From Fibrobacteria bacterium (lineage in GTDB: Bacteria; Fibrobacterota; Fibrobacteria; UBA11236): a DNA stretch of 64,000 bases. Below are positions 2,721 to 13,501 of the stretch, piece by piece (position 1 is the first letter of the stretch; every line of letters begins with the position of its first letter). The notes below the pieces were generated by a model. The model had not been told where the DNA came from and did no database searches. It saw nothing but the letters and a program-made list of their open reading frames with translations. Position numbers and translations under genes: made by a program. The stretch is taken from NCBI GenBank assembly GCA_025360005.1, contig JANYDA010000065.1, forward strand, positions 1 to 64,000. The letters run 5' to 3'.

Positions 2721-5700
2721 CTAATGCGGCGCGGGGGCGGTCTCCACGTCCATTTCATCCTTCTTCATCATGATGCCCATCTTCTCTTTGCGCTTTTCCC
2801 ACGAGTAGTAGAAAGTGGGCACCACCACCAGCACCAGCAGGGTGTTGAAGAGCAGGCCCCAGAAAATGCCCCAAGCCATGGGCGCCCACCATAGCGAGGA
2901 CTCGCTCTTGGTCTCGATGCCGAAGTGGATGAAGTCGATCCCTTTTCCCGTGGCCATGGGCAAGAGCCCGATCATGGCCGTCACGGCGGTCAGAAGCACG
3001 GGGCGCAAACGCGTGGCGCCGCCGGTGATGACCGCGTCCCGCAACGGCATACCGTGCCTGCGCAGATGATTGATGAAGTCGATGAGCACAATGCCGTTCT
3101 TGGCCACCACGCCTGCCAAGGCGATGATGCCGATGCCGGTCATCATGATGGCGAAGGTGGTATGCACCAGCAAGAGGCCCCAGAACACGCCGCCCAGCGA
3201 CAGGATGATGCCGATCAGCACCAGGAAGGGCTGCAGCACCGAGTTGAACTGCGCCACCATGGTCAGGAACACCAACGACACGGCGATGAAGAAGGCCTTC
3301 TTGAGGAAGTTGGTGGTATCGTCCTGCTCGCGGTTGCTGCTGCCGGTCTGGATGCGGTAGCCGGGCGGGCAGTTGATCTTCTTGGCTATTTCCGCCGCCA
3401 TGGCCTTGGCCACGGATTCATCCTTGACGCCGGGAGCCATTTCCGCCCATACCTGGATGGTGCGATCGCCTTCCAGATGGTTGATCTTGGCCAGGCTGGC
3501 GCCTTGGGTGATGCGCACCATGGAGGTGAGCGGGATTTGCGCGCCTTCGTGCGGAACGGTGATCTGATCCAGGCCGGAGAAGGCTTCCCGCGTCTTGGGA
3601 TCCAGGCGGATCATCACGTCGTATTCATCCTTGCCCTGGCGGTACTTGGCCGCTTCGATGCCGTGGATGGACCCGCGCACCGCCGTCGCCACGTCCGCGG
3701 TGGTCACGCCCATGGCCATGGCCTGCTCGCGATCGATGTCCACGCGCAGCTCCGGCCGCACGGGTTCGTAATCCCAGTCGATGTTGACCAGGTTGGGGAC
3801 CGTATGCAGCTTAGCCTTAAGCTCCTCCGCCACCTTGGCGATTTCCTTGAAGTCATCGCCCACCACTTCGAAGGAGACCGGGAAGCCCTGGGGCGGGCCT
3901 TCCTGCTGCTGCTTGACGCTCACCTTCCAACCGGGAAGGATGTCCTTCATGTTCTCTTCCATCCAGGCCATCGACTTCCAGGAAGAGACCTTGCGCTCGT
4001 TGTAATCCTGGAAGGCCACGTCCACGTAGGCCTTGTTGGATTCCGGGCTGCGGTCTCCGCCCATGGCGGTCTTGCCGAAGCCGACCACGCCGGAGAAGCT
4101 TTCCACGTCGCCGACGGAATCCGGCATGGTGAAGAGTTTGTTCTCGACGATCTTGAGTACGGAATCGGTTTCGGAAATGTTGATGCCCAGCGGGCCTTCC
4201 ACTTCCACGGCCACCACCAGGGGATCGATCTTGGGGAAGAACACCACGCCCGTGCCCAACTTGCCGTAAGCCATGATGCCGCCGATGACGAAGATGAAGC
4301 AAAACAGAGTGATGAGCCAGGGATGACGGATGGCGCGTTCCAGCACGCTGCTGTACCAGTTCTTCACCTTCTCGAAGCGTTCCCCGCCGCCCTCTTCCAT
4401 GCCTTTGGAATTGCTGCTCATGAACAGGGAAGCGAACACGGGATTGAAGACGAAAGCGACGAACAGCGATCCGGCTAAGGTCACGGACACGGTGATGGGC
4501 AGGTATTTGAAGAACTGGCCCATCATGCCCGGCATCAGCAGCAGCGGGAGAAAAGCGAAGATGGTGGTCAGGGTGGCCGTAGCCACCGGGAGCATCACTT
4601 CCTTGGTGCCGTCGATGGCGGCCTGCACCTTGGTCTTGCCCATTTGCAAGTGCCGGTAGATGTTCTCCACCACCACGATGCCGTCGTCCACCAGCATCCC
4701 CAAGCCTATCACCAGCGAGAAGAGCACCACCATGTTGAGGGTAACGCCCATGTAATCCAGCACCAGGAAACCCATCATCATGGAGAAGGGGATGGCGGTG
4801 GAGATGAAGAAGCTGTTGCGCACGCCCAGGAAAAAGGACAGGATGACCACCACCAGCACCAGGCCGGTGAGGATGTGGTTCTGCAATTCCCTGGCCATGC
4901 GGCGGATGGCGATGGATTGATCGAAGGTGTAGTTGATATGCGTGCCGGCCGGCCAGGAGGGCTTCAACTCTTCCACCGTGCGTTTGGCTTCGTCCACCAG
5001 ATCCACGATGTTGGATCCCGTGCGCTTGGTAACCGCGATGGCCTGGGAGTTCTTGCCGTGCAGGCGGAACACCGTGCTGCGATCGCGCGCATACCCGAAA
5101 TGGACGTTGGCCACGTCGCGCACGCGCACCAGGCTGGCTCCGCTGCCGCGGATGACCAGGTCCGCGAATTCTTCCGGATTGGCGAGCTCGCCGGTGAGCT
5201 GGATGGAGAAGCGGCTGCCGCCGGCTTTCAGGGTGCCGCCGGGGATGTTGCGATGCTGGCCCTGCACGGTCTTCATCAAATCATTGAGACTCACACCGTA
5301 CTGGCGCAGGCGGGCGGGATCCGCGTCGATGGCGACTTCCTTCTCCTGCTTGCCGGTGATCTGCGCGTCCAGCACCCCGGGAATGGTCTTGACCCGATCC
5401 TTGAGCTGCTCCACAACCTTGTCGAGGCGCTCGCTCTCGTAGTCGCCGGAAAGGGACATGACGAAGATGGGGATGTTGGAAAAGTTGAGCTCGCGGACCA
5501 CGGGCTCGTCCGCATCCGTGGGCAGATCCGGCTTGGCCTCGTCCACCTTGTCCTTGACGCGGCGCAGGGCGGTTTCCACGTTGACGTTGGCGTTGAACTC
5601 CACCTGGATGGAGGAGATGCTTTCCATGGACTGGCTGGAAACCTTCTTGACGCCGTCCAGGCCTTCCAGCTTGTCCTCGATCTTGTCCGTCACCGTCTTC

Positions 5701-5873
5701 TCGATATCGTCCGGGGACGCGCCCGCGTACACGACATTGATGAAGATCAACGGGATCTTGACCTCGGGAAAGGATTCCAACGGCATGCTCTTGTACGACA
5801 TGGATCCGGCCAGGAGCAGGATGACCGCCAACACGAGCACGGTGACCGGATTTTTGACTGCGAACTTTGTCAT
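2721..5873 (-). CDS. RND efflux pump inner-membrane transporter (HAE1/AcrB type, 1050 aa)
   Basis: This is a full-length resistance-nodulation-division transporter of the proton-driven drug-efflux branch. It starts MTKFAVKNPVTVL, has the two large periplasmic loops, and in TM4 the proton-relay pair D396-D397 (GMLVDDGIVVVENI). TM10 holds the conserved Lys in VVAKNGIVLIDF. Length is normal for the family. The pump would form a tripartite complex with the MFP (6087-7172) and the TolC-like channel (7169-8620) to expel lipophilic compounds, heavy metals being less likely because the metal-binding methionines of the CusA type are not seen. It lies 213 bases downstream of the MFP, separated by an AT-rich repeat. 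It probably shares the tetR promoter. Confidence 0.93.
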   Translation of the reverse strand: MTKFAVKNPVTVLVLAVILLLAGSMSYKSMPLESFPEVKIPLIFINVVYAGASPDDIEKTVTDKIEDKLEGLDGVKKVSSQSMESISSIQVEFNANVNVETALRRVKDKVDEAKPDLPTDADEPVVRELNFSNIPIFVMSLSGDYESERLDKVVEQLKDRVKTIPGVLDAQITGKQEKEVAIDADPARLRQYGVSLNDLMKTVQGQHRNIPGGTLKAGGSRFSIQLTGELANPEEFADLVIRGSGASLVRVRDVANVHFGYARDRSTVFRLHGKNSQAIAVTKRTGSNIVDLVDEAKRTVEELKPSWPAGTHINYTFDQSIAIRRMARELQNHILTGLVLVVVILSFFLGVRNSFFISTAIPFSMMMGFLVLDYMGVTLNMVVLFSLVIGLGMLVDDGIVVVENIYRHLQMGKTKVQAAIDGTKEVMLPVATATLTTIFAFLPLLLMPGMMGQFFKYLPITVSVTLAGSLFVAFVFNPVFASLFMSSNSKGMEEGGGERFEKVKNWYSSVLERAIRHPWLITLFCFIFVIGGIMAYGKLGTGVVFFPKIDPLVVAVEVEGPLGINISETDSVLKIVENKLFTMPDSVGDVESFSGVVGFGKTAMGGDRSPESNKAYVDVAFQDYNERKVSSWKSMAWMEENMKDILPGWKVSVKQQQEGPPQGFPVSFEVVGDDFKEIAKVAEELKAKLHTVPNLVNIDWDYEPVRPELRVDIDREQAMAMGVTTADVATAVRGSIHGIEAAKYRQGKDEYDVMIRLDPKTREAFSGLDQITVPHEGAQIPLTSMVRITQGASLAKINHLEGDRTIQVWAEMAPGVKDESVAKAMAAEIAKKINCPPGYRIQTGSSNREQDDTTNFLKKAFFIAVSLVFLTMVAQFNSVLQPFLVLIGIILSLGGVFWGLLLVHTTFAIMMTGIGIIALAGVVAKNGIVLIDFINHLRRHGMPLRDAVITGGATRLRPVLLTAVTAMIGLLPMATGKGIDFIHFGIETKSESSLWWAPMAWGIFWGLLFNTLLVLVVVPTFYYSWEKRKEKMGIMMKKDEMDVETAPAPH

Positions 5874-6086: not shown

Positions 6087-7172
6087 CTAGTAGGCAACCT
6101 TGGTTCCGGTCGAGACCTGGAACGCGCCCACGGTGATGATGAGATCGCCTTCTGCGATGCCGCTTTCTATGAGGACGGAATCGCCCAGGCCCGGGCCCAG
6201 ACGCACCGGCACCTGCACGGCCTTGCCGTCGCGGACGACCATGACCATGGTGCCTTCCTGCAGGCGCAATACCGCGTTGGACGGTACCACGATGGCCTTG
6301 TCGTATTTCTTACGGAGGATGCGGGTCTTGCCTACCATGCCGGGGCGCAGCACATTGCCGGAGTTGGGGATGTCGATGCGGGCCATCACCGTGCGGTTAT
6401 GCGCTTCCACGGCGCGGTCGATGCTCTTGAGCTTGCCGCTGAAGACACGCGCGGAATCCTGCACCAGGCTGAACTCGGCGGTCTGACCCTCATGGAAATC
6501 GCGCGCTTCCGATTCCGGAATGGCCACCACGGCCTGCAAGCGCGCGGTAGCGGCGATGCGCACCGTGGGCCCGCCGGGCGCCACGGTCTGGAAGCGCTCG
6601 ATCATGCGGCTCACCAGCACGCCGGAGAAAGGCGCTTGGCAACGGCTGTCTTCATAGGCGCGCTGCGCTTGCAGCATGGACACGCGGGCCTGCTGGAAGC
6701 CCAGTTCGGCCTGGTCCAGCACGGCCTTGCCCACGAAGCCCTTATCGACGTTCACCTTCTGCCGATCGAGTTCGCCCTTGGCCACATCCATGGCGGACTT
6801 GGCGGAAAGCATCATGGCCTGATAGCGTTGGCTCTCGATATCGCATAGCCCTTGGCCGGCCTTGACGGCCATGCCCACTTCGCTGACGTTGGCCACGCGG
6901 CCGCCCTGCATGGGCGCGGCCAGGGTGGCGTCGTCGGAGCCGCGCAGATCGGCGCTGTAGTTGCCCCAATCCTCGAAGGCCATGGGTTTGGCGGTCAGCA
7001 CCACCACGCGGACGGCGGCCGTGGTATCGGCGCCGGCGACGGCATCCTTGGCTTTATCGCCCTTTTTGCAACCCGCCACCAGGGCGGCCGCGACCAGGGC
7101 GAAGATTGGAAGGTAGCCGCCGGTCGGGCGGGCATAGCCGCCGTTGCGGCGGTTGTTGACGTGGTTATTCAT
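6087..7172 (-). CDS. RND efflux periplasmic adaptor (MFP) lipoprotein (361 aa)
   Basis: The amino end has a hydrophobic signal ending in the lipobox LVAGC (Cys35), so the adaptor is anchored as a lipoprotein. After it come the barrel-sandwich/lipoyl half (VANVSEVGMAVKAGQGL), a coiled-coil hairpin (about residues 115-180, MLSAKSAMDVAKGELDRQ), a second lipoyl half (CQAPFSGVLVSRMI) and a beta-barrel plus membrane-proximal domain to the end. Length is typical. The ATG overlaps the TolC-like gene stop as ATGA, which supports translational coupling. It bridges the RND pump and the outer-membrane channel. Assignment to the HlyD/AcrA superfamily is secure; the transported substrate is unknown. Confidence 0.92.
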   Translation of the reverse strand: MNNHVNNRRNGGYARPTGGYLPIFALVAAALVAGCKKGDKAKDAVAGADTTAAVRVVVLTAKPMAFEDWGNYSADLRGSDDATLAAPMQGGRVANVSEVGMAVKAGQGLCDIESQRYQAMMLSAKSAMDVAKGELDRQKVNVDKGFVGKAVLDQAELGFQQARVSMLQAQRAYEDSRCQAPFSGVLVSRMIERFQTVAPGGPTVRIAATARLQAVVAIPESEARDFHEGQTAEFSLVQDSARVFSGKLKSIDRAVEAHNRTVMARIDIPNSGNVLRPGMVGKTRILRKKYDKAIVVPSNAVLRLQEGTMVMVVRDGKAVQVPVRLGPGLGDSVLIESGIAEGDLIITVGAFQVSTGTKVAY

Positions 7173-8620
7173 GGAGCCTCCTCATTAATCAAACCTTTAC
7201 CCATGGCCAGGCGCAATGCGGCCGCGGATCGTACGTGCTGGTAGCGCGCGGCCAGGACGCCGAACTCGGCGTTGCGCAGGCTTTCCTCCGCGGAGAGCAG
7301 ATCGGTAAGCTGGCCTTTGCCGGCGCGGAAATCCTCCGAGAGCAAGGCTTGCGCCTCCTGGGCGGCGGCCACGGCCTGCTCGGAAGCGGACAGGGCGGTA
7401 TCGGCCGCCTGGTATTCGCGGAAGACGCCGTCCAATTCGATTAGCGCGCCCTTGCGGACCTGGCGGGCCGTAAGCCCCAGGCTGCGCGCATCGGACTGGA
7501 TCTGTTTGGCTTGCGAGGAGAGCGCGAAACCGTCGAAGAGCGGCCAGTTGAGCCCGATGCCTACCTGCCATTCGCGGTTGTCGTTGATCTCCTTCAGTTG
7601 GTTCAGCTTGTATGCCAACACGCCCACCTTGCCTTGCGCGCTCAGGGCCGGCAGGTACTGCATCTTGAGATAACGCGCCTGGCCTTCCAGGGATTGCCGC
7701 TGCAGTTCCATCGATTGGATATCGGCGCGCTCCCCGATCATGGCGTCCAGGGCCTGGCTGTCCGGGAGCGATTTGATAGGTTCCATGGGAATATGCGTCG
7801 CCGTGTCCAGGTCCAAGGGAGAGGTCAAAGGCCTTCCCATCAAGCGGTTCAGGGCCATGCGCGCCGCTTCCGCATCCTTCTCGGCGCGGATGCGCTGCGG
7901 CTCCAGGGATTTGAGGGCGGTGACGGCCAACAGCACAATGGAGCGCTGACCCGCTCCCATCTTGAAATTGCTTTCCAGGAAGTTCACCGTTTCCGTCTGC
8001 CGCTTGAGCGCGGACTCCAAGGTGGCCAGGCGCGCCTGCGAGGTCACGGCGCCGTAATAGGCGTCAAGCGTTTTCAATTGCAACTCCTGCACGGAGCGGC
8101 GGCGGGAAGCCCTGTCCGCGCGGTCCTGGATATTGGCGGTATGGATGGCCTGGCCCAAACGTCCGAAGGAGAACAGGGATTGATCGGCCTGGATGCCGTA
8201 GGAGAAACGGTTCTGGGCGATGTTGATCACCGCCGGGCCGGCGTCTTTGGGAGTATGATCGACTGGCACGACCAAGCTTCCATCGGCCAGGGTATCGACC
8301 TTGAGATCGCCGCCGGTGTTCTTCACATAGGTATCGGCCGCCTTGAATCCCAGGGAGGACAGATCGAAGGGCGAAGCGCCGCGGCCCGCATTGGCGTAGG
8401 CGGAGATGTGCGGATAAGCGCTGGCCCAAGCCTGCGCCTTGACGGCGTCGAAGCGGTTTTCCTTCTCCTTGAGGATGAGGGCTTCCTCGCTTTTGGCAAG
8501 CGTTTCCCGGATGGCTTGCTCCAAAGTGAGCGGCTCCGCCCGGAGGGGAACCGCCATGCTGGCGCAAACCGCCAAGGCGGCGATGGCGTGTATGCGGATG
8601 GATTGGCTGCTAGTTGGCAT
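7169..8620 (-). CDS. TolC-family outer-membrane efflux channel (483 aa)
   Basis: The protein has a signal peptide (to about AVPLRAEP) and two homologous halves with the long helical hairpins of TolC, each starting with an EAL/TLEQAI-like segment (LTLEQAIRETLAKSEEALI near residue 33). Length fits the family. I chose ATG 8620 over the longer frame because it gives a clean signal peptide. Its first 11 bases overlap the end of tetR, and its stop overlaps the MFP start, so it sits in the middle of a four-gene operon. It would open the outer membrane for the RND pump. The substrate is not visible from sequence. Confidence 0.92.
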   Translation of the reverse strand: MPTSSQSIRIHAIAALAVCASMAVPLRAEPLTLEQAIRETLAKSEEALILKEKENRFDAVKAQAWASAYPHISAYANAGRGASPFDLSSLGFKAADTYVKNTGGDLKVDTLADGSLVVPVDHTPKDAGPAVINIAQNRFSYGIQADQSLFSFGRLGQAIHTANIQDRADRASRRRSVQELQLKTLDAYYGAVTSQARLATLESALKRQTETVNFLESNFKMGAGQRSIVLLAVTALKSLEPQRIRAEKDAEAARMALNRLMGRPLTSPLDLDTATHIPMEPIKSLPDSQALDAMIGERADIQSMELQRQSLEGQARYLKMQYLPALSAQGKVGVLAYKLNQLKEINDNREWQVGIGLNWPLFDGFALSSQAKQIQSDARSLGLTARQVRKGALIELDGVFREYQAADTALSASEQAVAAAQEAQALLSEDFRAGKGQLTDLLSAEESLRNAEFGVLAARYQHVRSAAALRLAMGKGLINEEAP

Positions 8621-9236
8621 GGTATTCCGCCCTGGCTTTATCGGTGAGCAAGCCCTCGAACAACACCTTGCAGATGGTGTCGTACACATGCGACGGCTTG
8701 AAGGGGAGCCCGGAAAGGACTTCCGGGTTGAGGATGTCCCGCACTACGTGCGAATAGATGAGGATGAACAGGCGCTCGTCCACGTCTTTGCGGAATTGGC
8801 CCTTCTGGCGGCCTTCCTTGATCAAGGTCCCGAAATCGGTTTCGATATTCTTCTGGCGATGCTCTTCCACCTGTTTCCAGATTTCCGGGGCGTTGCGGCG
8901 CAAATCATGCACCAGCGACTCGCTCATCTCGCTGAAGATGCCGGTGACATAGCTCATGGTGAGTTTGAGCCGTTCCAGCGGCGACAGCTCGCGGCGATGG
9001 CAAATGGCTTTCAGCTCGGAATCGCACTCTTCCATATGGGCGGAGGTGACTTCTGCCAGCAGATCTTCCTTGCTCGGAAAATAGCGGTAGAGCGTCTTCT
9101 TGCTCATGCCCAAGGCCTCGGCCGCTTCGTCCATGGTCACCTTGCTGAAGCCATAGCGGAAGAACAGGCCGCGCGCCTCCCTCAGGATCCGCTTCTTGAC
9201 GTCTTCGTCGAGCCTGGTTTCGGTTTGGATGCGCAT
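8610..9236 (-). CDS. TetR-family repressor of the efflux operon (208 aa)
   Basis: Residues about 12-60 are a TetR DNA-binding domain with the recognition segment AAEALGMSKKTLYRYFPSKE. The remaining helical domain would bind an inducer. ATG 9236 was chosen since it gives the normal TetR length; the frame runs on to 9368 but would swallow the promoter. The gene overlaps tolC by 11 bases and leads the operon, so it most likely represses the pump, itself included, through the inverted repeat at 9244-9271. This is the usual local arrangement for TetR-controlled RND pumps. The inducer is unknown. Confidence 0.92.
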   Translation of the reverse strand: MRIQTETRLDEDVKKRILREARGLFFRYGFSKVTMDEAAEALGMSKKTLYRYFPSKEDLLAEVTSAHMEECDSELKAICHRRELSPLERLKLTMSYVTGIFSEMSESLVHDLRRNAPEIWKQVEEHRQKNIETDFGTLIKEGRQKGQFRKDVDERLFILIYSHVVRDILNPEVLSGLPFKPSHVYDTICKVLFEGLLTDKARAEYHAN

Positions 9237-9243
9237 AAACTGC

Positions 9244-9300
9244 GGAAACTCTCTTGGTGTTGTAAGTTTCCATAATAATCGGCGCGCGGGGTCTTGTCTA
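9244..9300 (-). promoter_or_regulatory. tetR-efflux promoter with operator
   Basis: On the minus strand TAGACA (9295-9300), a 17-base spacer and TATTAT (9272-9277) form a strong sigma-70 promoter, each box 5 of 6 to consensus. The inverted repeat GGAAACT...AGTTTCC (9244-9271, arms of 7, spacer 14) covers the start point and first bases of the transcript, fitting TetR autorepression. Confidence 0.7.
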
Positions 9301-9508: not shown

Positions 9509-9838
9509 ATGTCCAGCTATTACCTGTCCGAAGACCTAGCCCGCTTCGGCGATATGGCGCAAGCCAGCCCGAAATTGTTCGATCATTTCATGAAGTGGTA
9601 CGCCACCACCATGGAACCGGGCGCCTTGGACGCGCGTACCAAGAAGCTGATCGCCTTGGCCGTTTCCTTCGCCATCCAGGAGCCCTACTGCATAGACTCG
9701 TATTCCTCTTCCTGCGCGGACGCGGGCGTTTCCCCGGAAGAAATGGCGGAAGCGGTGAACGTAGCCGCCGCCATCCGCGGGGGCGGGACCATCGCCCATT
9801 GGGTGCAGGCGGGAAACACCCTGGCCCGCAAGGGCTGA
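9509..9838 (+). CDS. Carboxymuconolactone decarboxylase / peroxidase-like protein (109 aa)
   Basis: The short all-helical protein matches the AhpD/CMD fold and in detail the arsenosugar-associated peroxidase-like group (YYLSEDLARFG near the start, LIALAVSFAIQ, then PYCIDSYSSSC, and VNVAAAIRGGG). The usual CxxC is altered: the first cysteine is Glu58 and the surviving ones are Cys61 and Cys69, so a classic CxxC redox pair is absent. Start at 9509 with AAAGGGAA upstream. It is the first gene of a tight module with the FAD, radical SAM and phosphoesterase-like genes and probably serves the same pathway. Family placement rests on recall of the motif pattern; enzymatic activity is not known. Confidence 0.8.
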   Translation: MSSYYLSEDLARFGDMAQASPKLFDHFMKWYATTMEPGALDARTKKLIALAVSFAIQEPYCIDSYSSSCADAGVSPEEMAEAVNVAAAIRGGGTIAHWVQAGNTLARKG

Positions 9839-9854
9839 GGCGCGCGGCTCCGGC

Positions 9855-11078
9855 ATGGATACTATGCGCAAGCGCCTGGTCGTGATCGGCGCGGGTCCCA
9901 TGGGCTTGTACGCGGCCTTCGCGGCCGCGCAGCGAAATCTGGAGGTAACCGTCCTGGAACGGGATCGTATCGGGGAATCCCTCCTCAGCTGGGGATCGAC
10001 CCGTTTCTTTTCGCCTTTGGAAATGAACGTCCCGGCATGGGTGCGCGCGGCTTTGCCCGGACTTCCCTCCGGTGATGCGCTGCTGACGGGCCCGGAAATG
10101 GTGGAGCGCGTCCTGCTTCCCTTGTCGCGCCATCCGCTCGTGAACGATAAAATCAGAACGCGCCACCGGGTGCGGGGAATCGCGCGCGCGGGACTGTCGC
10201 GCGAGGATTTCCCCGCGCATCCCGTGCGGCATGAGAAGGCATTCCGCATCCTGGTGGAAACGCGGGAACCTTTTCCGGCGGAAACGGCGGCGGGCGGCGC
10301 CGCGCCGAACGTCATGCCGGGCGGGGAATACCTGTTGGATGCCGACTTCGTATTCGACGCCACCGGCGGTTACCGCCTCGGCAACGGAATGGGAAGCGGA
10401 GGATTGATGGCCCCGGGAGAAAGCGCTTCGGGACCTGCCGTCATCCGGCGCCTGGGCGATATGGAAGCCGCGTTGCAAGCCATGCGGGGCGGACGCATCC
10501 TGCTGCTGGGGCACGGCCACTCCGCCGCGCACGCCCTGCTGGCCCTCCGGGACGCCTCCCAAGGTAACCGAGAGGTTTCCGTAACCTGGGCGTTTCGATC
10601 CAGGAACATGCGCCCTTTCCGGGAGACCCCCGACGATCCGCTTCCGGGCCGGGCCGCCATAACCGCTCCGGCCAATGCCTTGGCCGCCGCGCCCCCCGCC
10701 TTCCTGGACATCCGGCGCGGGGCGGCGCTGGCCGCCTTGGAGAAATCCGGTTCCCGGCTCAAGGCGCGCTTCGGCGCGGGCGATCCCGTCGAGGTGGACG
10801 CCGTTTTCGCCTTCACCGGGTATCGGCCCGATCTGTCCTTCCTTTCGGAATTGGCTTTGGACCTGGCGCCGGCCACCCAGGGCACGCGCAAGCTGCATGC
10901 CCTCCTCTCCGGCGCCGCCGATTGCCTGTCCGTGCCCGCGCCGGCCGCGGGCGATCTGGAATCCGGAGAACCGGGCTTTTTCCTGTTGGGGGCCAAAAGC
11001 TACGGCCGTTCCAACACGTTCCTGTTGCGGGACGGCATCCTCCAATTGGAAATGATCCTCAAGCATGCCGTTGGATGA
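9855..11078 (+). CDS. FAD/NAD(P)-dependent oxidoreductase (407 aa)
   Basis: There are two nucleotide-binding motifs. The FAD motif VVIGAGPMGLYAA places the GxGxxG at residues 12-17, with an acidic end of the second strand at LERD. A second GxGxS motif (LLLGHGHSAAH) lies near residue 215 and would bind NAD(P)H. A later FTGYRPD segment is like those that close the FAD site in pyridine-nucleotide disulfide-type monooxygenases and reductases. No CxxC disulfide motif follows the first motif, so it is not a thioredoxin reductase. Overlap of 14 bases with the radical SAM gene argues for one operon. It resembles flavoproteins of the FMO type more than metal reductases; substrate unknown. Confidence 0.8.
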   Translation: MDTMRKRLVVIGAGPMGLYAAFAAAQRNLEVTVLERDRIGESLLSWGSTRFFSPLEMNVPAWVRAALPGLPSGDALLTGPEMVERVLLPLSRHPLVNDKIRTRHRVRGIARAGLSREDFPAHPVRHEKAFRILVETREPFPAETAAGGAAPNVMPGGEYLLDADFVFDATGGYRLGNGMGSGGLMAPGESASGPAVIRRLGDMEAALQAMRGGRILLLGHGHSAAHALLALRDASQGNREVSVTWAFRSRNMRPFRETPDDPLPGRAAITAPANALAAAPPAFLDIRRGAALAALEKSGSRLKARFGAGDPVEVDAVFAFTGYRPDLSFLSELALDLAPATQGTRKLHALLSGAADCLSVPAPAAGDLESGEPGFFLLGAKSYGRSNTFLLRDGILQLEMILKHAVG

Positions 11079-11967
11079 GACGCCCGGCTGCGCGGCCGCT
11101 GCCGCCACCCGCTACCCGTCCGCCCCCATGCTCGGCCTGGAAACGGTTTGGTTCCAGGTGGCCGGATCGGTTTGCAATTTGGCCTGCGCCCATTGCTTCA
11201 TATCATGCTCGCCTTCCAACCGTACCCATGCCATGCTGGACCTGGCCGCCGTGGAAGCGCATTTGCGGGACGCGGAAGGGTTGGGAGTGCGCGAATATTA
11301 TTTCACCGGGGGCGAACCGTTCCTTAACCCGGAGATCCTCGCCATCCTGGACGCGGCGCTGCGTTACGGCCCTGCTACCGTGCTCACCAACGGCACTTTG
11401 ATCACGGCTAAGCGGGCGCGGGAATTGCGCGCGCTTTCCGACGCATCCTCGTACAGCCTGGACATCCGCCTTTCCCTGGACGGCTTCGACGCGGCCGGCA
11501 ACGACGCCATCCGCGGCGCCGGCACCTTCGCCCGCATCCTGGAAGCCATCGGCAACCTGTCTTCGGCGGGATTGAATCCCGTGATCACGGTAACGGAAGC
11601 CTGCACGGAGGCGGGCGATTCGCGGGGCCGCGGCCGGCTGCTGGAACGGCTGCGCGCGTTGGGGCTGGAAAGGCCGCGCCTGAAGGTGATGCCGTTGCTG
11701 TTGCTGGGGGCGGAAACCGATCGCACCCGCGGATACGCGGCCGGGGAAACCCTGGCGGGCGTGGCGTTGGAGGAGGCCGATGCGGCGGCCCTGCAATGCG
11801 CTTCCGGCCGCATGGTCACGGCCGAAGGCGTGTTCGTCTGTCCCATCCTCATCGATTCCCCGGAGGCGCGCATGGGGGCTACCCTGGCGGAAACGCTGCG
11901 GCCCTTTCCCCTGCGGCACCGCGCCTGCCATACCTGCCACGCCCAGGGCCTCAATTGCCGGACATGA
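11065..11967 (+). CDS. Radical SAM enzyme with C-terminal cysteine cluster (300 aa)
   Basis: The radical SAM CxxxCxxC motif is at C37-C41-C44 in QVAGSVCNLACAHCF, with a further Cys48. The glycine-rich TGGEP motif is at residues 81-85. Near the end there are five more cysteines (C245, C259, C288, C291, C298), enough for an auxiliary Fe-S site, as in SPASM or twitch-containing enzymes. The pattern differs from ArsS (no DUF3641-type ending), so I do not name it ArsS. The start overlaps the FAD gene by 14 bases and its stop (TGA) overlaps the next ATG. It probably modifies or builds a small molecule together with its neighbours. Confidence 0.85.
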   Translation: MPLDETPGCAAAAATRYPSAPMLGLETVWFQVAGSVCNLACAHCFISCSPSNRTHAMLDLAAVEAHLRDAEGLGVREYYFTGGEPFLNPEILAILDAALRYGPATVLTNGTLITAKRARELRALSDASSYSLDIRLSLDGFDAAGNDAIRGAGTFARILEAIGNLSSAGLNPVITVTEACTEAGDSRGRGRLLERLRALGLERPRLKVMPLLLLGAETDRTRGYAAGETLAGVALEEADAAALQCASGRMVTAEGVFVCPILIDSPEARMGATLAETLRPFPLRHRACHTCHAQGLNCRT

Positions 11968-12815
11968 TGGGTAACCCGTATGTTACCCAGGCGGACAGCC
12001 AGGTTGGGGAGTTCCGCCGGGCGGCCTTTTTCGGAGGCGTCTACTCCAACCACCTGGCGCTGGCGGCCGCCCTGAAGCTGGCGCGATCGCTGCGGGTGGA
12101 CGCGGTTTTCGCCCTGGGGGATTTCGGCGCCTTCGGCCCGCATCCGGATAGAAGCGTGGAAATCCTGCGCGGCAACGGCATCATATCCATCCAAGGCAAC
12201 TACGAGGAGGCCCTTTCCCAAGCGGCCGGGGACTGCCGCTGCGGCTACGTGGATCCGCGCGACAACCATTACGCGCGCCTGTCTTTCGACTATACCGCCA
12301 TGAAAACGGCGGCCGGGCATAAGGCCTGGATGGGCACCCTCCCCCGCAACTTGCGCATGACCCTGGGCGGGCAACGCGTCTTGTGCTGCCATGGATCGCC
12401 GCGCCGCATCAATGAATTCCTGTGGGCCAGCTCCACCTCGGACGCGTTCCTACGCAAGCTTTTGGACGATTACCAGGCCGATTTGCTCCTCTGCACGCAT
12501 ACCGGCCTGCATTGGTCGCGGTTCTTGCCGGCGGAAGGAAACGGCGGACGTTCCGCCCGCGGCATAATCAATGTGGGCGCGTTGGGGCGGCCCGCCAACA
12601 ACGGCCGCACGGAGGTCTGGTTCGCGGTGGTGGAAAGGGCGTCCGGGGAAACCAAGGTCGAGTTCGTACCGGTAGCCTATGACCATGCCAAGCTGGCCTC
12701 AGAGATGGCCGACGAGGGGCTGCCGCCGGAATTCCGCGCGACCATCCTGACCGGTTGGTGGACCACCTGCCTGGAAATCCTGCCTGCCAAGGAACGCGCG
12801 GCCGGAAAGTTTTAA
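11964..12815 (+). CDS. Metallophosphoesterase-like protein with altered metal motifs (283 aa)
   Basis: The fold pattern is that of the calcineurin-like YfcE group: LGDFGAFGPHPD, GNYEEALS, HGSPRRIN and CTHTGLHW correspond to its motifs 2 to 5. However motif 1, normally D-x-H, reads GGVYSN, and the GNHD motif is GNYE, so several metal ligands are changed. Two other blocks look conserved in the family as I recall it: CRCGYVDPRDN, and LTGWWTTCLEILPAKER at the carboxyl end. It starts by ATGA overlap with the radical SAM gene (an ATG also at 11967). It may bind metal in a different way or act as a binding subunit. Role in the module is not known. Confidence 0.7.
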   Translation: MMGNPYVTQADSQVGEFRRAAFFGGVYSNHLALAAALKLARSLRVDAVFALGDFGAFGPHPDRSVEILRGNGIISIQGNYEEALSQAAGDCRCGYVDPRDNHYARLSFDYTAMKTAAGHKAWMGTLPRNLRMTLGGQRVLCCHGSPRRINEFLWASSTSDAFLRKLLDDYQADLLLCTHTGLHWSRFLPAEGNGGRSARGIINVGALGRPANNGRTEVWFAVVERASGETKVEFVPVAYDHAKLASEMADEGLPPEFRATILTGWWTTCLEILPAKERAAGKF

Positions 12816-12850
12816 TTTTAAACCGCTCCCGCGGGAGGAAAGGAGATGTC

Positions 12851-13501
12851 ATGAACATAGCGATATTGGGGACCGGAATGGTGGGTTCCACCATCGGCGG
12901 CAAAATGAGCCAATTGGGCCACAAGGTCAAGATGGGCTCGCGCACGGCGGGCAATGAGAAAGCGGCGGCCTGGGCGCAAGCGGCGGGCGCCGGCGCTTCG
13001 CAAGGCACTTTCGCGGAGGCGGCCGCTTTCGGCGAGATGGTTTTCAATTGCACGTCCGGGACGGGATCGTTGTCCGCCCTCGCCATGGCCGGCGCGGCAA
13101 ACCTCGACGGCAAGATCATCATCGACATTTCCAACCCGCTGGACTTCTCCAAGGGTATGCCGCCCACTTTAGGCATATGCAATACCGATTCGGTGGGCGA
13201 GCAGATCCAGACGGCGTTTCCGGGCGCCAAGGTGGTCAAGACCCTGAACACCACCAATGCCCTGCTGATGGTGAACCCGGCGCAATTGGCGGGCGGCGAT
13301 CATACCATGTTCATGTGCGGCAACGACGCGGAGGCCAAGGCCAAGGTGCTCGATCTTTTGAAGAACGGTTTCGGGTGGAGGGACGTGGTGGACCTGGGCG
13401 ATATCACCGCCGCGCGCGGGCAGGAGATGATACTTCCCATCTGGCTGCGGCTGTGGGGCGCGCTCAAGACGCCGAACTTCAATTTCAAGATCACGCGCTA
13501 A
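12851..13501 (+). CDS. NAD(P)-binding F420-reductase-like protein (216 aa)
   Basis: A Rossmann motif (MNIAILGTGMVGSTIGGK) opens the protein, with a conserved SR at residues 29-30 that often selects NADP. NTDSVGEQIQ and KTLNTTNALLM are as in the F420H2:NADP-type/YqeC-like reductases, sometimes called NADP oxidoreductase coenzyme F420-dependent. There is no sign elsewhere in the window of F420 synthesis, so the name describes the fold only. AAAGGAGA at 12838-12845 is a strong ribosome-binding site. It is 35 bases behind the phosphoesterase-like gene and may be the last gene of that operon or a separate passenger. Confidence 0.75.
   Translation: MNIAILGTGMVGSTIGGKMSQLGHKVKMGSRTAGNEKAAAWAQAAGAGASQGTFAEAAAFGEMVFNCTSGTGSLSALAMAGAANLDGKIIIDISNPLDFSKGMPPTLGICNTDSVGEQIQTAFPGAKVVKTLNTTNALLMVNPAQLAGGDHTMFMCGNDAEAKAKVLDLLKNGFGWRDVVDLGDITAARGQEMILPIWLRLWGALKTPNFNFKITR

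Follow-up and report, generated by a model that had tools for sequence, protein, structure and literature searches.

We describe here a four-gene operon, cmd-fad-rsam-mpe, in the first 64,000 nucleotides of contig JANYDA010000065.1 from a Fibrobacteria bacterium (GCA_025360005.1; this whole stretch is hereafter called the window), and we suggest that it serves to make or detoxify an organoarsenical, a reading to which we give a probability of about 0.6. With the same degree of confidence, the module may be regarded as a variant of organoarsenical operons that has an unnamed clade of radical S-adenosylmethionine (SAM) enzymes at its centre. All four genes have relatives in arsenic clusters, and it is for this reason that we assign the operon a role in arsenic metabolism. 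Because the four homologies converge on arsenic, there is more support for this element as the one handled, which their association makes probable, than for any one reaction; the individual reactions, their substrates and order, and the product of the operon we infer by analogy with the relatives. A literature search found no published description of this gene set. Thus, the view taken in a preliminary description of this DNA, that no pathway had been described for the set, holds for the set as a whole but not for its members, each of which has relatives in arsenic loci.

The preliminary description had reported a compact module of five genes, three of them overlapping, at 9509-13501. All five open reading frames exist at those positions and on the strand given, and each matches the family proposed for it (Table 1); the overlaps amount to 14 bp between fad and rsam and 4 bp (ATGA) between rsam and mpe. 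The module is indeed compact and conserved, but it comprises four genes rather than five, as the npdG-like gene was not found at the syntenic loci of three congeners (G116, G118 and G119) and was therefore dropped from the unit, which then extends from 9509 to 12815. In these same congeners the order and strand of cmd, fad, rsam and mpe are kept, with protein identities of 58-94%; in G119 the locus is divided over two contigs, one ending and the other beginning inside fad. The host draft genome is 4.98 Mb in size and its closest named relatives are metagenome-assembled genomes of Fibrobacteres. The four-gene set is present in four of the six genomes of the genus and was not found in the remaining two (G115 and G117), so that the operon appears to be gained or lost as a block. 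In a set of 168 genomes from the phylum, fad occurs in exactly the four operon-bearing genomes, rsam in these four and two distant members, and a TIGR04169-like cmd in these four and five TIGR04169 genomes of other genera; within the genus, an mpe of the operon type is again confined to the same four. The grouping of the four genes is not a matter of chance, since order and strand are kept across the congeners.

The radical SAM protein lies at the centre of our proposal. When the window protein was aligned with eight relatives (26-78% identity to it), the CX3CX2C and GGEP motifs were common to all nine sequences, and five C-terminal cysteines (Cys245-X13-Cys259 ... Cys288-X2-Cys291-X6-Cys298) were invariant, in agreement with the C-terminal cysteine cluster noted previously. 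No NCBIfam model scored above its cut-off for this clade. The best model, that of the Rv1681 family (NF049973), gave 93-113 bits against a cut-off of 380 (93.3 bits for the window protein, over the core only), and the ArsS model (TIGR04167) gave 49-62 bits, where reported, against a cut-off of 300. The enzyme was said from the outset not to be ArsS, and that identity can be ruled out: the window protein scores 48.7 bits, with the match confined to the core, and ArsS stands on a very long, separate branch of the tree. In a profile comparison, the window protein and ArsS could be aligned end to end, weakly (22% identity) and with the cysteines of C-x13/14-C and CxxC...C falling opposite one another, whereas an MftC control profile gave a stronger alignment, but over the core only. 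Thus, the C-terminal layout is ArsS-like, although the core is no closer to ArsS. AlphaFold models of the radical SAM protein and of mpe had mean predicted local distance difference test scores of 55 and 46, from alignments of 4 and 3 sequences respectively. In viral contigs the radical SAM matches were all distant and mpe was not found, and a scan of genome contigs with patterns from close relatives found just one locus outside the genus. A Marinobacter match was discarded because it spans two frames with no arsenic genes around it, and matches in Rhizobium and Nocardia were discarded because the core alone aligned.

This radical SAM clade spans three phyla, and arsM, genes for arsenosugar glycosyltransferases and genes for Car1-like proteins are among its recurrent neighbours. 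For example, the gene order is arsM-FNR-rSAM in G203 and TIGR04282-FAD/NapH-DUF547-TIGR04283-rSAM in G114 (rSAM denoting the radical SAM gene), and on a plasmid of Roseomonas haemaphysalidis it is TIGR04282-DUF547-rSAM-rSAM-phnD/E/C-like-mpe, with an mpe of the CxC type. Furthermore, of the genomes outside the genus that carry the radical SAM gene, four were searched for ACR3 (G114, G203, G126 and G127) and all gave a match, above the cut-off in three and, in G127, partial and below it. Two of these loci can be noted in their own right. In G203 (L077, 4252-6895), arsM, an FNR-like reductase gene and the radical SAM gene form one tight operon. The Roseomonas plasmid locus (L013, 8971-15931) brings together two radical SAM genes, a DUF547 gene, a TIGR04282 glycosyltransferase gene, a phnD/E/C-like ABC transporter and an mpe lacking DxH, and is a candidate organoarsenical gene cluster on its own account.

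A likeness of cmd to CMD proteins linked to arsenosugars had been noticed earlier; its score with TIGR04169, a CMD family whose name refers to arsenosugar biosynthesis, is borderline, at 117.6 bits (cut-off 120). Within the phylum, the five proteins that score highest against TIGR04169 (134-144 bits) all come from other genera, and at four of their five loci, those with readable flanks, the adjoining gene is ArsS-like; one of these neighbours scored 417.5 bits against TIGR04167. Where the ArsS-neighbouring TIGR04169 proteins of the phylum have CPYC, the window protein has QEPYC, Glu58 thus replacing the first Cys of the CxxC motif while Cys61 and Cys69 are retained; the same replacement (EPYC) is seen in both of the congeners aligned. 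Having lost this Cys, cmd is unlikely to be a CxxC peroxidase of the AhpD type, and of the family assignments made previously it is the label 'peroxidase-like' that now appears doubtful.

The best relatives of fad outside the genus are flavin adenine dinucleotide (FAD) proteins, with 31-35% identity at 97-98% coverage. Five of the six contexts that we read are arsenic loci, namely arsR-fad-arsK in Ensifer and Rhizobium, arsR-fad-acr3 in Kocuria, arsR-fad-MFS in Rhodococcus and arsR-fad in Herbiconiux; the sixth, in Roseomonas mucosa, is padR-fad-MFS. The FAD protein adjoining arsK is one that we take to be the ArsV of the literature, the name coming from context and from titles cited in PMC11719878 and PMC9144182, and because of this adjacency the relatives are read as ArsV-like. 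To go by the title of a 2022 report by Zhang (as cited in PMC11719878), ArsV is said to oxidize antimonite and organoarsenicals. Compared with the ArsV-type flavin monooxygenases of arsR-arsV-arsK loci, fad is homologous over the full length of the FAD core, with the KSYGR region close to the C-terminus included, but its identity to the arsR/arsK-locus proteins is only 31-35%, and the C-terminal TGVC...CC tail present in all six aligned relatives is missing from fad and its congeneric counterparts.

Relatives of mpe are found in arsenic operons of Adhaeribacter (arsM-mpe-acr3), Paraclostridium (arsR-mpe-arsM), Hymenobacter, Rubrobacter and Mucilaginibacter. A metallophosphoesterase of this sort is reported to share ~40% identity with the arsenate reductase Car1, along with the two cysteines that are essential in it, Cys74 and Cys76 (PMC12124457). 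The CxC of the Paraclostridium relative falls exactly at Cys74/Cys76 and aligns with Cys91/Cys93 of the window protein; CxC is missing from a Sinorhizobium relative, which lies outside any ars locus, and from the tandem second copy in Mucilaginibacter. In comparison with the Car1 type of arsenate reductase (Rufibacter; Paraclostridium Orf1), the fold family and the position of CxC are alike, but mpe is only ~25-31% identical to the ars-operon members, and its DxH has become GxY and its GHxH THxG, with the loss of the DxH metal ligands and of the second His. The mpe of the Roseomonas radical SAM cluster has likewise lost DxH, together with the second GHxH histidine, and the two proteins group together in the tree at 99/97 support, the Roseomonas branch being long.

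How might these four proteins act together? Judging from its relatives, mpe, as a Car1-related protein with CxC, would convert As(V), as arsenate or in some other form, to As(III). With its canonical CX3CX2C cluster and an auxiliary C-terminal cysteine set arranged as in ArsS, the radical SAM enzyme could transfer a SAM-derived group onto As(III) or methylated As(III), forming a carbon-arsenic bond, and the group might be 5'-deoxyadenosyl (as for ArsS) or 3-amino-3-carboxypropyl (as for ArsL). The ArsV-related flavoprotein fad may then oxidize the toxic trivalent product to a pentavalent form. Finally, cmd, whose position next to a radical SAM enzyme corresponds to that of TIGR04169 proteins next to ArsS, may use the cysteines left to it for thiol or redox chemistry on the arsenical, and not act as an AhpD-type peroxidase.

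This scheme both resembles and departs from two further systems among those closest to it. As in the ArsS arsenosugar pathway (ArsM, TIGR04167 ArsS, TIGR04169 and TIGR04282/TIGR04283), a TIGR04169-like gene and a radical SAM gene share one operon, the C-terminal cysteine layout is alike (C-x13/14-C ... CxxC-x6/7-C), and relatives of rsam stand with ArsM or TIGR04282/TIGR04283. However, the operon has neither ArsM nor a glycosyltransferase, it has additional ArsV-like and Car1-like genes, its radical SAM protein is below the ArsS cut-off, and its cmd lacks the first CxxC cysteine. The other system, that of the arsinothricin synthase ArsL (arsQML), in which a radical SAM enzyme makes the carbon-arsenic bond from inorganic As(III), offers a model for an operon with no prior ArsM step. 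The conserved cysteines of the 428-amino-acid BgArsL are those of CX3CX2C only (PMC8552651), whereas the 300-amino-acid rsam protein has five more that are invariant. As the operon is independent of the presence of ArsM (in G118), the favoured substrate is either inorganic As(III) or an arsenical from outside the cell, as for ArsL. A bolder proposal, which we advance tentatively and at rather less than even odds, is that rsam represents a third class of radical SAM enzyme forming carbon-arsenic bonds, apart from ArsS and ArsL, and that the operon makes an undescribed organoarsenical straight from arsenate, by way of a metallophosphoesterase-derived reductase that has surrendered part of its metal site. 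Two such bond-forming enzymes, ArsS and ArsL, are in the literature; the present clade is a testable candidate for a third, and would provide a handle on organoarsenical production by uncultured bacteria.

Several observations weigh against an organoarsenical role. The complete four-gene set is seen in one genus only, identity to arsenic-locus proteins is only 25-36%, and the catalytic motifs of cmd, fad and mpe depart from those of their relatives. Furthermore, the likeness of fad to ArsV was judged from FAD proteins of ars loci, and that of mpe to Car1 from ars-operon relatives and published residue positions. In two Sumerlaeota genomes, the radical SAM gene has no arsenic-type neighbours, one of these copies being on a 3-kb contig. 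The operon contains no ArsR gene, ACR3 was not found in any genome of the genus, and G118, in which the operon is present, had no arsM or arsC at the thresholds used; strict co-occurrence of the operon with ArsM or ACR3, tested within the genus, was not found. Two congeners have an aqpS-arsC-arsR-arsM locus (L124 and L083); in the window genome arsM is in pieces (C32:299615-300362), adjoining arsC, and aqpS is apparently truncated. In this region (G000:C32:299615-301140; L123), arsM is interrupted by an in-frame TGA and a change of frame, next to an arsC that looks intact; the ars locus may be decaying, or the assembly may be at fault. The preliminary description had also held that finding the genes apart in most genomes would count against a common system. 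Outside the genus they are often apart, but the sampled cases lie mostly in arsenic contexts, and their dispersal therefore points to a function, not against one.

Alternative explanations can be set against the synthesis or detoxification of an organoarsenical. It is possible, though in our judgement unlikely, that the operon breaks down organoarsenicals and so confers resistance, with rsam cleaving or modifying an external compound (an arsenic antibiotic, for example) and mpe and fad handling the arsenic set free. This draws on the same homologies as our preferred reading; relatives of fad do lie in resistance loci beside arsK or acr3, and, with ACR3 missing from the genus and the operon not tracking ArsM, an in-house methylarsenical is not assured. 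However, the radical SAM gene elsewhere accompanies a biosynthetic ArsM and TIGR04282 and TIGR04283 glycosyltransferases, and we know of no radical SAM enzyme described as a carbon-arsenic lyase. Lower still do we rate another metalloid or chalcogen (antimony, selenium or tellurium) as the substrate in place of arsenic. The oxidation of antimonite attributed to ArsV would suit this idea, as would the short name of TIGR04169, perox_w_seleSAM, which records a selenoprotein ArsS partner, but the neighbourhood signals are arsM, acr3, arsC and arsenosugar glycosyltransferases, and no selenium pathway appeared in any context that we read. If the genes were unrelated redox genes, brought together by chance or in this lineage alone and serving no common pathway, this would explain why the full set is limited to one genus and absent from two of its five other genomes; we think this highly improbable, given that the genes overlap, that the set is present or absent as a block, and that the radical SAM gene and a CxC-type mpe recur in one cluster in Roseomonas, a different phylum, with that well-supported mpe grouping. 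Least probable of all is a peptide-modifying radical SAM cluster (of the ribosomally synthesized and post-translationally modified peptide or quinone-cofactor type), for although the radical SAM core aligns best with the Rv1681 family and SPASM maturases (MftC, WgkB), we recognized no gene for a precursor peptide or a chaperone in the operon, no conserved small open reading frame lies near the radical SAM gene in the loci read, homology to MftC ends after the core where that to ArsS reaches the C-terminal cysteines, and the relatives of fad and mpe are arsenic genes.

Table 1. Features of the cmd-fad-rsam-mpe operon and its surroundings (positions in the window)
Feature	Position	Strand	Remarks
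cmd, CMD/AhpD-fold, TIGR04169-like	9509-9838	+	Pfam 5.5e-16; TIGR04169 117.6 bits; 83-94% identity in three congeners
fad, FAD/NAD(P) oxidoreductase, ArsV-like homologue	9855-11078	+	full-length matches, 31-35% identity
rsam, radical SAM, unnamed clade	11065-11967	+	CX3CX2C (Cys37, 41, 44), GGEP, C-terminal cysteines
mpe, calcineurin-like metallophosphoesterase fold	11964-12815	+	Pfam 3.4e-6; Car1-type CxC (Cys91, Cys93)
npdG-like NADP oxidoreductase (F420_oxidored-type)	12851-13501	+	family match; not conserved with operon
inverted repeat GGAAACT-N14-AGTTTCC	9244-9271		upstream, beside tetR start; conserved in genus
tetR of RND efflux locus	8610-9236	-	divergent neighbour
tolC	7169-8620		neighbour of operon
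hlyD	6087-7172		neighbour of operon
RND pump	2721-5873		neighbour of operon

The TetR regulator and RND pump can be ruled out as parts of the operon, as tetR-tolC-hlyD-RND stands in G117, which lacks the operon. In G115, tolC-hlyD-RND is likewise kept with no operon, on a contig that ends there. Since the RND locus persists in genomes that lack the operon, we regard the pump as a neighbour and not a component. The inverted repeat on the tetR side is also present in G117, and is probably the operator of tetR itself. Further along the window (14586-52018), inspection by eye found genes for a sensor kinase, a response regulator, a polysaccharide chain-length protein, glycosyltransferases and asparagine-synthase-like proteins, which suggests that an exopolysaccharide cluster of the exosortase type fills much of the window.

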